A stretch of 64,000 bases of DNA from Bacteroidales bacterium (GTDB lineage: Bacteria; Bacteroidota; Bacteroidia; Bacteroidales; B18-G4), in NCBI GenBank assembly GCA_018400295.1, contig JAGYMZ010000005.1, forward strand, positions 1 through 64,000. The letters run 5' to 3'. Shown piece by piece: positions 53,324 to 60,097 of the stretch; the stretch's first letter is position 1; every line of letters begins with the position of its first letter. Under the pieces are notes generated by a model that had not been told where the DNA came from, ran no database searches, and saw only the letters and a program-made list of their open reading frames with translations. The position numbers were made by a program, and so were the translations under genes.

Positions 53324-54892
53324 TCAGGGATTGACTTTTCTGACCGCATCGATCACGGTTCCATCGACCCATTTTATGGCTGCTACGATCTCATCGTCCA
53401 ATACCGGCTTTTCCGGTTTGCCACATATCTTTTCTGCTTCGTTCTTCAGTTCTTCAATGGTTTTTATTGGCAGCCCGGTATGTTTCAGCCTGTCCAAAAG
53501 ATCCTGTCTCCGTGGGTTTACGGCAATGCCCCTTTCGGTTACAATTACATCGATCAGTTCACCGGGTCCGCACAGTGTTGTGACTTCATCCTTGATCACC
53601 GGGATCCTGTCGCGGAAGAGCGGGATGGGCAAAATGGTACATTTGGCATGCAGGCAGTTTTGCCATCCTCCGATACCGTGAAGCAGGTACCCGTCGGAGT
53701 GGGTGACTACGTTTCCGTTGAAGTTGATATCGACTTCAGTGGCGCCCAAAATAACAATATCCATCATCGTGGTATAATTGCCTTTGGAGTGGAAGTCGTA
53801 TGCATGAAAAATTGAAACGGGGTAATGGTTCGGATTTTCCCGCACCGACCGTACAGCTTCCAGATCAAAGGCTTGTGCGTCCAGAATATAATCCATAACG
53901 TCATCCCTGATCATATCGACCATGTATTGGGTGCTCCCTCCGAAAGCGAACCGGGCTTTCCAGTTCTTTTCTTTCAGGATCTGGTGAAAGTCGTGACCTA
54001 TGGCCAGGGATGTTCCGCCGGCTCCGAACTGAAAACATCCCCGGTCTTTTAATATGCCTGTTTCCAGACAGAACTGAGATGTTAACTGAGCGATGAGAAG
54101 GCGATCCGGGCTATTTGTGATCCGGGTAGTTCCGGAAACGATCTTCTCCGGGATGCCGATCTTATCCACCACCACAACATAATCTACAAAGTTTCCCTCG
54201 ATTTGCATTGGGATGCAGGGAAAATCGACCAGGTTATCGGTTACGACAATGACTTTATCCGCATATTGATAATCTGCGAGAGAATAACCCAATACCCCGC
54301 ATGCCGAGGGCCCGTCGACTGCATTTCCATTGCCAAAGGGATCGGCAGTGGGTGTGGCAATAACGGCGATGTCTACCTTGATTTCTCCATCCTGTATTGC
54401 CTGGTAACGGCCACCATGGGAACGCAATACGGCTGTGCCCGTCATCCTGCCTTCGGAGCAATATTTTCCAAGTGGGCCGTTCATGCTTCCTTCGATCCTG
54501 TTTAATGTCCCATCTTCCAGGTAATCAATGACAGGGGCATTGCAAGGGAAGGCAGCGGACGGGAACCAGACCAGATTTTTGACCCCCATTTCCGATGCAT
54601 GCTTAAAGATCTCGTTGCTGACCAGGTCACCATTTCTGAGATGATGATGGGTGGATATGGTCATGCCATCCTGCAAGCCCGCTTTTTCGAGGGCTTCCCT
54701 GAGCGAAGCAACGGTTTTGTTCCCGTCTGCAGGATAATCCAGGGATGTGGGTATGAGAGGTGCATGCTTGCGGCCCTGCGGCCTGTGCTTGCCGACACCC
54801 TGAAAAGGGACATGTTTCCGGCCATTGATCTCTTCCGGGACGGTCCTGCCGGCGGCATTTTTTACAAGCGTATCGTATTTCTTCATATTCAT
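53324..54892 (-). CDS. citF: Citrate lyase alpha subunit
   Basis: The 522-residue CoA-transferase subunit moves the acyl-carrier thioester to citrate, giving citryl-ACP. It matches CitF throughout: VPFQGVGKHRPQGRKHAP near the N-terminus, the ISTHHHLRNGD active-site block and the GPGELIDVIVTERGIAVNP end. The start at 54892 (MNMKKYD) is preferred: the longer frame overlaps the upstream citDE end. Gap 23 bp. Neither citC, citX nor citG is in the window. Confidence 0.92.
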   Translation of the reverse strand: MNMKKYDTLVKNAAGRTVPEEINGRKHVPFQGVGKHRPQGRKHAPLIPTSLDYPADGNKTVASLREALEKAGLQDGMTISTHHHLRNGDLVSNEIFKHASEMGVKNLVWFPSAAFPCNAPVIDYLEDGTLNRIEGSMNGPLGKYCSEGRMTGTAVLRSHGGRYQAIQDGEIKVDIAVIATPTADPFGNGNAVDGPSACGVLGYSLADYQYADKVIVVTDNLVDFPCIPMQIEGNFVDYVVVVDKIGIPEKIVSGTTRITNSPDRLLIAQLTSQFCLETGILKDRGCFQFGAGGTSLAIGHDFHQILKEKNWKARFAFGGSTQYMVDMIRDDVMDYILDAQAFDLEAVRSVRENPNHYPVSIFHAYDFHSKGNYTTMMDIVILGATEVDINFNGNVVTHSDGYLLHGIGGWQNCLHAKCTILPIPLFRDRIPVIKDEVTTLCGPGELIDVIVTERGIAVNPRRQDLLDRLKHTGLPIKTIEELKNEAEKICGKPEKPVLDDEIVAAIKWVDGTVIDAVRKVNP

Positions 54893-54915
54893 GGATGTCT
54901 GTATTAACGAACGGT

Positions 54916-56154
54916 TTATTGTTTTTCTTCCTTCAACCAATTTTCAGGCAACATACCCCGGCTTACGGCCATATCGATTGTGTTTTTTGCTTGTTTCACA
55001 ACCGGTGGATCGATCATTTTGGTTCCGAGAGATACCACGCCCAGCCCTTTTTCAGAGGCTTCCCTGAATGCAAGGAATATTTTTTTGGCTTTTTCCAGCT
55101 CCCTGGATGAAGGGGCAAAATGTTCATGGATGATGGCGATCTGGCGGGGATGTATGCAGCCCATCCCGTCAAATCCAAGGGATTTGGATTCCAAAACCGT
55201 TTCTTTCAACCCTTCGGTGTTGGCAACATCTGAGTATACTGAATCAATTGCCTGGATCCTGGCGGCTTTACAAGCATTTACAATGTGTGATCTTGCGTAA
55301 AAGGATTCTTTTCCTGTGCTGGTTCGCTGAATGCCAAGATCCGCTGTGTAGTCTTCCAGCCCGATGGCCATGGCGGCGATGTTGTCAGCAGCGGTTGCTA
55401 TTTCAAAGGAATGAATGATACCCAGGGCACTTTCAATGATCGGCATGAGCCAGACACGGTGGGCAGGGTTGAGGGATGCTATTTTTTGATTGATCTCAAG
55501 AATTTCTTCTTTGCTTTCACATTTGGGGACAAGGATCAGGTTGACAAAATGGGGTACGATGTGATCCAAATCGTCAAGGCTTTTGGGGAACTGATTGACC
55601 CGTACCATTTTCTCGGCACCGTATAAATTCAGGTTCCGGAGGGCATTCCTGACAAGAAAACGGGCTTCGTATTTTTTGTCCGGGGCTACCGCATCCTCAA
55701 GGTCAAAAATAATTCCATCGGGTTTATGTATGCCTGCATTGATCATCAGGTGAGGGGCGTTCCCGGGAATGTAAAGGCGGGAGATCCTTTTCCTGTCTTT
55801 AGGAGTGGCCTGTTTATTCTCCTTAAGTTCCGGAAGCAGGTAATCGTTGGAAGAAGTGATGAGTTTTTTTATGGCTGCTTCCAGCCGGGCTGCAATCACA
55901 AAGGGCAATGCCCCGGAATCCATTATGCGGATCCCGGCATGCTGCAGTCTGAAAAACCTTGCCATCTCAAGGACCTGCTCGCGGATTGCTTTGCCAAACA
56001 TTACCGCGACTTTACTCTTCAGGTCCAGGTCAATCCCTCCTGTGTCTTTCAGGGAAATTTCCACATGGCAATCTGAGCGAATCCCTTCCCCGTAATTGCC
56101 TGCGCTTGCATTTTTTACGCGGTCTTCCATGATTTTTCCTGTATTTAAGGACAT
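54916..56154 (-). CDS. Citrate lyase gamma (ACP) and beta (lyase) subunits fused, CitD-CitE
   Basis: The 412-residue product joins two citrate lyase subunits that are normally separate. Residues about 12-100 are a CitD-type acyl carrier: after AGNYGEG comes RSDCHVEI (S27 aligns with the prosthetic-group Ser of CitD), then IRIMDSGALPFVIAARLEAAI. Residues about 123-400 are a CitE lyase with RLYIPGNAP, the metal-binding FDLEDAV (D151, E153, D154) and MVRVNQFP. The beta subunit splits citryl-ACP into oxaloacetate and acetyl-ACP. The ATG at 56154 is used. Function follows from the CitF partner. Confidence 0.88.
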   Translation of the reverse strand: MSLNTGKIMEDRVKNASAGNYGEGIRSDCHVEISLKDTGGIDLDLKSKVAVMFGKAIREQVLEMARFFRLQHAGIRIMDSGALPFVIAARLEAAIKKLITSSNDYLLPELKENKQATPKDRKRISRLYIPGNAPHLMINAGIHKPDGIIFDLEDAVAPDKKYEARFLVRNALRNLNLYGAEKMVRVNQFPKSLDDLDHIVPHFVNLILVPKCESKEEILEINQKIASLNPAHRVWLMPIIESALGIIHSFEIATAADNIAAMAIGLEDYTADLGIQRTSTGKESFYARSHIVNACKAARIQAIDSVYSDVANTEGLKETVLESKSLGFDGMGCIHPRQIAIIHEHFAPSSRELEKAKKIFLAFREASEKGLGVVSLGTKMIDPPVVKQAKNTIDMAVSRGMLPENWLKEEKQ

Positions 56155-56249
56155 TTTTCTGTTTATCCCTGCAAAGATCAAAAGTTTTTTTTGAATGTCG
56201 TGACATCCTGTGAAAAAATCAACGGCATTTTGAGTGTTTGCGACAATTA

Positions 56250-56685: not shown

Positions 56686-56715
56686 GGATCCGGGATCTAG
56701 TTCATTACCGGATCC
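56686..56715. terminator. Inverted repeat between convergent genes
   Basis: GGATCCGG (56686-56693) pairs perfectly with CCGGATCC (56708-56715) around a 14-nt loop. It covers the stop of yqgE and follows the DUF5011 gene by 52 bp. No T-run on either strand, so it may be a factor-dependent or weak bidirectional terminator. Confidence 0.45.
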
Positions 56716-57287
56716 GATGGGAAGTTGGTCCAGATAAAATACTTTCCGCCCAGTTTTTTCAATGATTTTTCCCATAGATTACGGGGAAGGGTGTTCAGCA
56801 GCATATCGGCGCTGGTGTTGGATACTACCCATGCGTTCCGTTTAAGCTCCCCGTCGAGTTGTTTGCTTCCCCATCCGGAATAGCCGATAAAAAAACGGAT
56901 GTCGTCGGCCCTGAGCTTTTTGAGATTGATCAGTTCCTTGATCTGATCGAGGTCTCCGCCCCAATAAATGCCCGGTACGATCTCCTGGCTTGCTGCAATT
57001 TTGTCACCAAGTGTATGGATGAAAAAGAGGTTGTTATTTTGTACGGGCCCACCAAGGAACACAGGGCTTTCAAATTCCGGGAACTCTTTAACCACTTCAT
57101 TGAATTGAGCCGAAAGGGGTTTGTTCATGATCAATCCAAATGAGCCTTCATCTCCATGCTCTGCAAGAAGGACAACCGATCTTTTAAAGTAGAAATCACC
57201 AAGGAAGGGTTCTGAGATCAATATCCGGCCCCGGGCGGGTTCAATATTATTGGTTTTTATATTTAAAAGGCTGTGTAAATCCTTCAT
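56697..57287 (-). CDS. YqgE/AlgH family protein
   Basis: The 196-residue protein is a member of UPF0301: RGRILISEPFLGD, FKRSVVLLAEH, GSFGLIMNKPL and VFLGGPVQ are conserved. The family has no agreed biochemical function, although AlgH has been linked to regulation and redox. The ATG at 57287 is chosen because the frame upstream runs into the -7 box region. It diverges from murL with only 51 bp between the starts. Confidence 0.9.
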   Translation of the reverse strand: MKDLHSLLNIKTNNIEPARGRILISEPFLGDFYFKRSVVLLAEHGDEGSFGLIMNKPLSAQFNEVVKEFPEFESPVFLGGPVQNNNLFFIHTLGDKIAASQEIVPGIYWGGDLDQIKELINLKKLRADDIRFFIGYSGWGSKQLDGELKRNAWVVSNTSADMLLNTLPRNLWEKSLKKLGGKYFIWTNFPSDPVMN

Positions 57288-57295
57288 TTTATAAT

Positions 57296-57303
57296 TACTT
57301 TTG
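57296..57303 (+). promoter_or_regulatory. -7 box of murL-murD2
   Basis: TACTTTTG is a perfect TAnnTTTG ending 35 bp before the murL ATG; the expected start is near 57309. It lies inside the leader of the opposite yqgE transcript. Confidence 0.6.
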
Positions 57304-57315
57304 AAATCTAATATA

Positions 57316-57323
57316 CAAAAATA
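57316..57323 (-). promoter_or_regulatory. -7 box of yqgE
   Basis: The minus strand reads TATTTTTG, with an expected start near 57310, practically the same position as the murL start. It lies inside the murL leader. Confidence 0.6.
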
Positions 57324-57338
57324 ATACCACATATAAAA

Positions 57339-58712
57339 ATGAAAGCGGGAAAAACAGCGCGCTATGTTGATCTGAGAAAAGATTTTCCTTTTTTTGCATT
57401 TGAAGAATTCAGCGTTGAAATAGAAAGCGATGAGATCCGGGCAGAATTCCTGTTTAATTTGTCCGGTCGTTTTTTTTTCCGTCCCGACCTACGGATCCCA
57501 TTACGCCCCTGGTTCATCCAGGAAAATATGCACGAAAGCATCCTCAGGCAACTATTCTTTCATATCGGGATGATCGAGTTGATCAGCTACTGGAAGGCTG
57601 CATGCTCTCCACGGGTGATCATACGGCCATATAATCTTGATGCTTCGCAGGTCCGGTGGTGGAAAACGATTTACCATCATGGCCTGGGTGAATTCTTTTA
57701 TACCAATGGACTCCAGCCAGGGATGGAAGATTTCATGGAAATTGTGCCGGAATCCGGTAATGAAAGCGAAAAAGTCTCTTTCAGGAATTCCCCGGGATAT
57801 CTTGTCCCCGTTGGTGGAGGAAAGGACTCCGCGGTTTCCCTGGAGGTTCTGAAAGGATATAACCATTCGGTCATACCCTTTGTCATGAATCCAAATGCTG
57901 CCATGGAAGGCACCATTCTGGCTTCCGGGGGTTCCATGCACAATTCCGTGGTTGTTTATCGAAGCATTGATCCGAAGTTGTTGGAATTGAATGCAAAAGG
58001 CTTTCTGAACGGGCACACTCCCTTTTCAGCCCTGCTTGCGTTCAATTCATTGCTGGGTGCCTCTTTGGCAGGGACATCCCATATTGCATTATCAAATGAG
58101 TCCAGTGCCAATGAGCCCACCATTCCCGGGACGCACATCAACCATCAGTATTCCAAATCTTTTCATTTTGAAGCCGCTTTCCGTAGCTATATTGCGGATT
58201 ATATCAGTTCTGATGTTTCATATTTTAGTTTGCTTCGTCCTTTGAATGAACTTCAGATCGCCCGTATTTTTGCTGAGAAGAAGCCGTATCATGATGTTTT
58301 CCGCAGCTGTAATAAAGGGAGCAAAACCGGTTCATGGTGCCGCAAATGTCCCAAATGCCTTTTTACATGGATCATTCTTATGCCGTTTTTGGGTAATGAT
58401 GCGCTTATTAAAATGTTCGGCGGCGACCTGATGGAGGACCTTTCGCTAAGACCTTTACTGGACCAGTTGACCGGAATGGCCCGTGAAAAACCTTTTGAAT
58501 GTGTTGGCACAATAGATGAGGTCAATGTTTCTCTTGTATACGGGATCAGGAAGTACGGCAAACCGCTTCCCCCATTGCTCAGGTATTACCGGGATTCGGA
58601 TATGTACCGGAAATATGAAAATGCAGATATGGACCTTTTTTTAAACGTGCTGCATCCGGAGCATTTTGTTGATGAGGACGCTCTTATGATGATAAAATCA
58701 GAACTTCCATGA
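57339..58712 (+). CDS. murL: MurL-like UDP-MurNAc-L-Ala-L-Glu epimerase
   Basis: The 457-residue protein fits the MurL family, which epimerises the terminal L-Glu of UDP-MurNAc-L-Ala-L-Glu to D-Glu with ATP. Seen directly: a PP-loop-like nucleotide motif VPVGGGKDS (156-164), the block SNESSANEPTIPG (252-264) with NHQYSKS, and a Cys cluster C334-x2-C337-x2-C340 (WCRKCPKC). The last codons overlap the start of a MurD-type ligase (ATGA), the partner known for MurL in Xanthomonas. My family call rests on motifs and this neighbour, not on a search. An uncharacterised PP-loop enzyme would be the alternative. Confidence 0.75.
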   Translation: MKAGKTARYVDLRKDFPFFAFEEFSVEIESDEIRAEFLFNLSGRFFFRPDLRIPLRPWFIQENMHESILRQLFFHIGMIELISYWKAACSPRVIIRPYNLDASQVRWWKTIYHHGLGEFFYTNGLQPGMEDFMEIVPESGNESEKVSFRNSPGYLVPVGGGKDSAVSLEVLKGYNHSVIPFVMNPNAAMEGTILASGGSMHNSVVVYRSIDPKLLELNAKGFLNGHTPFSALLAFNSLLGASLAGTSHIALSNESSANEPTIPGTHINHQYSKSFHFEAAFRSYIADYISSDVSYFSLLRPLNELQIARIFAEKKPYHDVFRSCNKGSKTGSWCRKCPKCLFTWIILMPFLGNDALIKMFGGDLMEDLSLRPLLDQLTGMAREKPFECVGTIDEVNVSLVYGIRKYGKPLPPLLRYYRDSDMYRKYENADMDLFLNVLHPEHFVDEDALMMIKSELP

Positions 58713-60097
58713 TAGCCTTGCTGGACGGCAAACTAAGGAATAAGCGGGTATGTATTCTCGGGTTCGGCCGGGAAGGGCAGTCTACGTATTCCTTGATCCG
58801 GAAGTATTTTCCGGATCTCCCCCTGACAATAGCGGATCGGGATCATGCATTCTTGAATTCCTTGGCCCTGAAAGAAAAGGATAAAAACCTGCGATTGATT
58901 TCAGGTACGGATTATCTGAGGGAAGCCGGCAGGCATCAACTGGTATTCAAAACGCCCGGCATCACCATGAAATCCTTGTCCGGAATAATTCCTGCTTCTT
59001 CCATTACCTCCCAGGCGGATATTTTTCTTGAAGCTTACCGCAAACAAGTTATTGGTGTTACGGGCACCAAGGGAAAAACCACTACCGCCAGTCTAATATA
59101 TCACATCCTCAGGCAATCGGGCAGGGATGCTGTCCTGATTGGGAATGTTGGCTTGCCTCCCTTTGAAATGCATGAAAAGATCCGCACAGGCACTGCCATT
59201 GTATATGAGATGTCGTCCCATCAGCTGGAAACCGTAAACCATTCACCACACATCGCGATCCTCTTAAATCTTTTTGAAGAACATCTTGATCACTATGTGG
59301 ATTTTCATTCATACGCCATGGCCAAATTGAACATCATGCGTTATCAGCAAAGGGGTGATGTACGGATATATTCAGCCGACCATGTAACAGGCAGGACGGT
59401 GATGGCGGATCCCGGGGGGGCAACGCACGATTTTACATATTCCCTTTTAAAGAAAGTAACGGCCGGGTGTTACCTGTACAATGGACGCATTATTTTCCGG
59501 AGGAACAGGCATGAATCTGAGATGATGGATGCATCTGAAATACCATTGATGGGCAACCATAATTCAGGCAATGTGATGGCTGCCATGATCGCCGCTCATA
59601 TTTGCCGGGTATCCCTTCCCGTTATTCAAAAGGGTGTTCGGTCATTTCGTGGATTAAAGCATCGATTGGAATTTCTGGGTGTATTCAGAGGAGTGGAGTT
59701 CTACAATGATTCCATTGCTACCATTCCACAGGCGACCATGGCGGCCCTTAAAACGCTGGGTAATGTGGAAATACTTATCCTGGGCGGGTACGATCGTGGC
59801 ATCGATTATGATTGCCTGGTTTCATTTCTGCAAGGGTTCAATGTTAAGAATATCCTGCTGACCGGCCCGGCCGGAAAAAGAATACAGATTAAACTGAAAC
59901 AAAGCCGGCATCCTTCAAACCTGTTTTACCGGCATGCGTTTACGGATATTTTTCCCTTGCTTCGTAAAATTGCAAAAGCCGGCGACACTTGTCTGTTGTC
60001 ACCGGCTGCTGCCAGTTATGATTGTTTTAAGGATTTCGAGGAGCGGGGAATACTCTTTGCTGAATTTGCACAGCGTTTTGAAGCGGAAAGGAAATAA
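58709..60097 (+). CDS. murD2: MurD2-like UDP-MurNAc-L-Ala ligase (probably L-Glu adding)
   Basis: The 462-residue Mur ligase has all three domains. Visible are the N-terminal nucleotide fold GFGREGQSTY, the ATP loop GTKGKTTTA (119-127), YEMSSHQLE (166-174), NLFEEHLDHY (187-196), GNHNSGNVMAA and LKHRLEF. The stop of murL and the start of this gene overlap by 4 bp. MurD normally adds D-Glu; next to MurL the likely acceptor reaction is addition of L-Glu. Whether a canonical murD also exists outside the window is unknown. Confidence 0.82.
   Translation: MIALLDGKLRNKRVCILGFGREGQSTYSLIRKYFPDLPLTIADRDHAFLNSLALKEKDKNLRLISGTDYLREAGRHQLVFKTPGITMKSLSGIIPASSITSQADIFLEAYRKQVIGVTGTKGKTTTASLIYHILRQSGRDAVLIGNVGLPPFEMHEKIRTGTAIVYEMSSHQLETVNHSPHIAILLNLFEEHLDHYVDFHSYAMAKLNIMRYQQRGDVRIYSADHVTGRTVMADPGGATHDFTYSLLKKVTAGCYLYNGRIIFRRNRHESEMMDASEIPLMGNHNSGNVMAAMIAAHICRVSLPVIQKGVRSFRGLKHRLEFLGVFRGVEFYNDSIATIPQATMAALKTLGNVEILILGGYDRGIDYDCLVSFLQGFNVKNILLTGPAGKRIQIKLKQSRHPSNLFYRHAFTDIFPLLRKIAKAGDTCLLSPAAASYDCFKDFEERGILFAEFAQRFEAERK

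Follow-up and report, generated by a model that had tools for sequence, protein, structure and literature searches.

The closest described relatives of the system reported here are MurL (XOO_1319) and MurD2 (XOO_1320) of Xanthomonas oryzae. They are encoded by an overlapping pair of genes, murL before murD2, in a genome from which murI, the gene of glutamate racemase, is absent (PMC8788868). The specificity of X. oryzae MurD2 for L-glutamate (L-Glu) is set by E197 and R358, which stand at the positions of D182 and K348 in Escherichia coli MurD; the double change E197D/R358K turns the enzyme into a D-glutamate (D-Glu) ligase, and K319T allows E. coli MurD to accept L-Glu (PMC8788868). Adenosine monophosphate (AMP) is formed by Xanthomonas MurL, and adenylation of the substrate was proposed (PMC8788868). 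Reviews considered MurL/MurD2 to be confined to relatively few genera, and they name the Gamma- and Alphaproteobacteria and the Actinobacteria, not the Bacteroidota (PMC8788868, PMC5808125). In this study, we analyzed a stretch of 64,000 nucleotides (the window) from contig JAGYMZ010000005.1 of an uncultured Bacteroidales bacterium (assembly GCA_018400295.1). We are highly confident that the gene pair at 57339-60097 of the window is the murL and murD2 of this alternative D-Glu route in peptidoglycan, and that the route has replaced the racemase in this lineage and occurs in about a third of the sampled genomes of the order. A preliminary description of the window, made from the letters and their open reading frames (ORFs), had proposed the Xanthomonas route and took it to be described mainly outside Bacteroidota, which agrees with the reviews. 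The genes and their diagnostic sites are as follows.

57339-58712, forward strand: murL, encoding a PP-loop protein of 457 amino acids (aa)
57813-57830, forward strand: PP-loop ATP-binding motif GGGKDS of MurL, residues 159-164
58092-58130, forward strand: SNESSANEPTIPG block of MurL, residues 252-264
58308-58358, forward strand: C324-x9-C334-x2-C337-x2-C340 cluster of MurL, a probable QueC-type metal site
58709-60097, forward strand: murD2, encoding a Mur ligase of 462 aa
59279-59281, forward strand: E191 of MurD2 (E. coli D182; X. oryzae MurD2 E197)
59714-59716, forward strand: I336 of MurD2 (E. coli K319)
59795-59797, forward strand: R363 of MurD2 (E. coli K348; X. oryzae MurD2 R358)

The two ORFs overlap by 4 bp, in an ATGA at 58709-58712. 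Both ORFs, this overlap and all the motifs named in the preliminary description (GGGKDS at 159-164, CxxCxxC at 334-340 and the SNESSANEPTIPG block) were found where it had placed them, and a further invariant cysteine, C324, precedes the CxxCxxC. The first ORF matched the MurL profile NF041275 with an E-value of 4e-71 (240 bits, residues 24-398); the absence of such a match had been named beforehand as a refutation. A tblastn search of plasmid records led to Xanthomonas sacchari, where an annotated murL precedes and overlaps a gene annotated as murD, and the comparisons with Xanthomonas proteins were made with X. sacchari, not X. oryzae. The identity of the window proteins to those of X. sacchari was 36% for MurL (over 321 aa) and 29% for MurD2. 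The PP-loop, NE-SA, NHQ-S-K, Cys cluster and KPFEC blocks were common to both MurL proteins. The MurL motifs were invariant or nearly so in nine family members and 51 aligned sequences, a conservation well above chance. GGGKDS was unchanged in the 51 sequences, as were S252-E254, S256 and E259 of the SNESSANEPTIPG block and the four cysteines C324, C334, C337 and C340, the cysteines also in X. sacchari. N253, E254, S256 and A257 of the block were shared with both X. sacchari and Pseudonocardia.

The second ORF is a MurD-family Mur ligase (TIGR01087, 318 bits). The three residues related to substrate specificity were compared between 82 MurD2 (MurL-coupled ligases, X. sacchari among them) and 31 canonical MurD, which include the MurD of the dcw cluster of the same genome. 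E191 was E in 81 of the 82 MurD2 and D in 30 of the 31 canonical MurD, I336 was I in 82/82 and K in 31/31, and R363 was R in 82/82 and K in 31/31. The dcw MurD of this genome carries D/K/K at these positions, whereas the window MurD2 carries E/I/R. The E and R are shared with the Xanthomonas enzyme, and at positions 433 and 435 X. oryzae MurD2 has P and F where the window protein has A and Y. In a tree of 18 MurD2 and 14 MurD, in which canonical MurDs of other phyla were few and X. sacchari formed a long branch, the MurD2 of Bacteroidota, of metagenome-assembled genomes (MAGs) labelled Lachnospiraceae and of Xanthomonas made up one clade against canonical MurD (support 100/97). From these residues, the window MurD2 is predicted to use L-Glu and to be poor with D-Glu.

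The coupling of the two genes was stable. MurL was present in all nine genomes of the family, always with murD2 adjoining, and murD2 was directly downstream of murL in 79 of 80 further loci; at the remaining locus (L074), no murD2 match was seen within 6 kb downstream. In three of these loci (L083:5971-8688, L086:5995-8685 and L097:5971-8949), a single ORF of 897-993 aa encoded MurL and MurD2 as a fusion, with MurL first. ORFs of 885-949 aa in five more genomes (G520, G546, G621, G709 and G774) resemble these and may also be fusions. Across the order, MurL was detected in 124 of 393 sampled genomes and 68 of 206 genera, one of the 124 being a weak fragment. A phylum-wide sample, with full-length MurL only in the genome of the window, had suggested that MurL is rare; the order-wide sample showed this to be a sampling effect. 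Two MAGs labelled Lachnospiraceae (G441, locus L102) and Enterocloster (G439, locus L095) carried murL-murD2 without murI, for which transfer and mislabelling are both possible.

The preliminary description had suggested that the organism may lack murI. This was borne out: the genome (92% complete) gave no match to PF01177 or to TIGR00067 (glut_race), and none of 49 MurL genomes had a glutamate racemase above the cut-off, whereas the same search found one in 13 of 13 genomes of the same order or class that were MurL-negative in the phylum-wide sample. One MurL genome (G422) had a sub-threshold match of 79 bits. A candidate MurI in the family, its single PF01177 match (L018 in G002), was rejected as a racemase of the aspartate type (asp_race). 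The pair resembles the canonical MurD and MurI route in the MurD fold and the reaction type, and this genome has a canonical dcw MurD; it differs in that MurI is absent and MurD2 has other specificity residues and a separate clade. A murI together with a canonical murD and a ligase accepting only D-Glu had been put forward as the result that would overturn the route; the murD is present, the murI is not, and the proposal stands.

Profile matches, phylogeny, specificity residues, predicted fold, operon structure, gene fusion and anticorrelation with murI place the pair in the MurL/MurD2 pathway. In the proposed mechanism, MurD2 would add L-Glu to the cell-wall precursor and MurL would then flip the incorporated L-Glu to the D form, and this route would have taken the place of glutamate racemase in the lineage. 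The activities of both enzymes are predictions from homology with Xanthomonas. Several points weigh against this reading. The 240 bits of MurL are far under the 700-bit cut-off of NF041275, which was set for Xanthomonadales and was reached by no sampled genome of the order. The last 60 or so residues of the window MurL did not align to Xanthomonas MurL. In a genome that is 92% complete, the absence of murI would by itself prove little. Finally, a canonical MurD, full-length and with its motifs intact, is retained between mraY and ftsW in this genome; its retention would be strange in a cell that makes no D-Glu.

The retained MurD gives rise to the strongest alternative, in which MurL/MurD2 is secondary or conditional, and a class-IV aminotransferase (D-amino-acid type) is the main source of D-Glu and supplies the canonical dcw MurD. 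We consider this unlikely. The full-length MurD, with the D/K/K residues, was found in all nine family genomes, and the genome of the window encodes a second class-IV aminotransferase, which scored below all curated cut-offs and whose nearest solved relative is the monomeric DtolTA of Desulfobacula toluolica (5.8e-43).

L019:1390-2268 and L165:3820-4695: class-IV aminotransferase, C40 of the genome of the window (G000)

Among MurL genomes, an aminotransferase of this type was present in 21 of 30 that keep the full-length dcw MurD vs. 2 of 15 in which it is truncated (Fisher p 4e-4), but the correlation came from only 3-6 independent events and was not significant on the tree. DtolTA deaminates D-Ala without overall transamination and is approximately 1000-fold less reactive with D-Glu than with D-Ala (PMC11673721), and no genome reached the cut-off for D-amino-acid transaminase (TIGR01121). 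Five less complete genomes of the family showed no copy of the gene, and its neighbors point to neither folate nor wall genes. In several genomes it often lies beside a DMT permease. On these grounds, the aminotransferase was rejected as a likely source of D-Glu. MurL/MurD2 is probably the main D-Glu route, although the canonical dcw MurD co-exists with MurD2 in this genome.

One group of MurL genomes had both MurDs, and in a second group MurD2 was the only full-length MurD. In 15 genomes of the second group, the gap between mraY and ftsW holds an ORF of 178-188 aa (approximately 182 aa). Its alignment to MurD is limited to the C-terminal domain (PF02875) and has a shared start point, and the ORF is tightly packed in the operon. 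G441, the genome labelled Lachnospiraceae, had no MurD at all between mraY and ftsW.

L137:823-1368: stand-alone MurD C-terminal domain ORF
L138:914-1459: stand-alone MurD C-terminal domain ORF
L140:2088-2633: stand-alone MurD C-terminal domain ORF
L141, L142, L143, L144, L145, L147, L148 and L150-L154: further loci with a stand-alone MurD C-terminal domain

The ratio of nonsynonymous to synonymous substitution rates (dN/dS) of the stand-alone domain was 0.05-0.16 in six pairs, rough values with dS near saturation, and the domain is apparently under purifying selection. Mapped on the MurL tree, truncation required six changes, at least three of them on well-supported branches, and must therefore have arisen or been reversed repeatedly. 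Separate truncations, transfer and differential loss may each have produced this pattern and look alike in these data. We tentatively suggest, as an idea that may well prove wrong, that MurL/MurD2 took over in Bacteroidales and relieved the dcw MurD of D-Glu ligation, and that several lineages kept a C-terminal remnant whose role is not catalytic and might be that of a partner of MraY, FtsW or MurG. The full-length MurD of the family of the window may persist for the same reason or for D-Glu salvage, not for the main pathway. The stand-alone MurD domain offers a natural test for non-catalytic roles of Mur ligases encoded in the dcw cluster.

The predicted structure of MurL gives information on how it may work. 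An AlphaFold model of the window MurL was built from 51 sequences, with a mean predicted local distance difference test (pLDDT) score of 94. Its best structural match was QatC (Z 18.8 over 324 residues), followed by QueC (Z 13.2 over 201 residues, and 12.5) and Cap9 (Z 12.5), and the sequence profile matched the PP-loop of TtuA (E 6e-4). According to this model, the first gene folds as a QueC-like PP-loop ATPase; with GGGKDS and the HUP fold, the earlier term "PP-loop-like" was correct and can now be made more precise. The likeness lies in the fold of the ATPase domain and in the PP-loop. The window MurL differs from QueC, QatC and Cap9 in that identity is 8-18% and the gene adjoins a Mur ligase instead of queuosine or defence genes, and it has an extra N-terminal domain relative to QueC. 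The four-Cys pattern resembles the zinc site of QueC, and by this analogy the cluster probably binds a metal. PP-loop enzymes of the QueC-like kind cleave ATP to AMP and pyrophosphate. The QueC-like fold of the window MurL therefore agrees with the formation of AMP by Xanthomonas MurL (PMC8788868), and adenylation chemistry would be expected here as well. No paper linking MurL to QueC was found in a literature search, which is not proof of novelty. With the QueC-like fold, MurL, previously described without a known domain, gains a testable mechanism.

The same structural match could be read in another way. QatC belongs to an anti-phage system, and with a MurL profile score below its own cut-off, the first gene might be some other QueC/QatC-like PP-loop enzyme, the pair making a product outside peptidoglycan, e.g., a defence or natural-product peptide. 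This seems very improbable to us. A QatABCD defence role was rejected, with no PADLOC match and no qat genes adjoining (the neighbors are murD2 and yqgE), and identity to QatC is only 8-10%. The residues and clade of MurD2 and the complete anticorrelation with murI in the tested genomes also speak for the wall. Because MurD2 is the sole full-length MurD in many relatives, it most likely serves the wall. The weakest explanation is that murI is present and was missed in draft genomes, that of the window being in 91 contigs and several others of the family only 75-84% complete. It is hardly credible, given the detection of murI above the cut-off in every control and in no MurL genome by one and the same search, and given that the single PF01177 match of the family is of the aspartate-racemase type.

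Other genes near the pair were also noted. A yqgE/AlgH-like gene is divergent from murL, with approximately 50 bp between the likely starts, and this arrangement was seen in eight of nine family loci (not L015, as far as it could be read). Further upstream, one ORF combines an acyl-carrier-like domain (PF06857) with a CitE-like HpcH/HpaI domain and adjoins CitF.

56697-57332, reverse strand: yqgE/AlgH-like gene
54916-56181, reverse strand: acyl-carrier-like and CitE-like ORF
53324-54940: CitF

Overall, the finding is real: a known pathway is widespread beyond its described range and now takes in much of one large, mostly uncultured order. The surprise lies in its spread within the order, the QueC-like fold of MurL and the remnant MurD domain of relatives. 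D-Glu supply is essential and serves as a target for antibiotics. MurL was found in nearly a third of the sampled genomes of one Bacteroidota order, never with murI where tested, and also in Lachnospiraceae-labelled MAGs. If the enzymes work as predicted, many gut and sediment bacteria would escape drugs directed at the racemase, and drugs directed at MurL would be less narrow than hoped.
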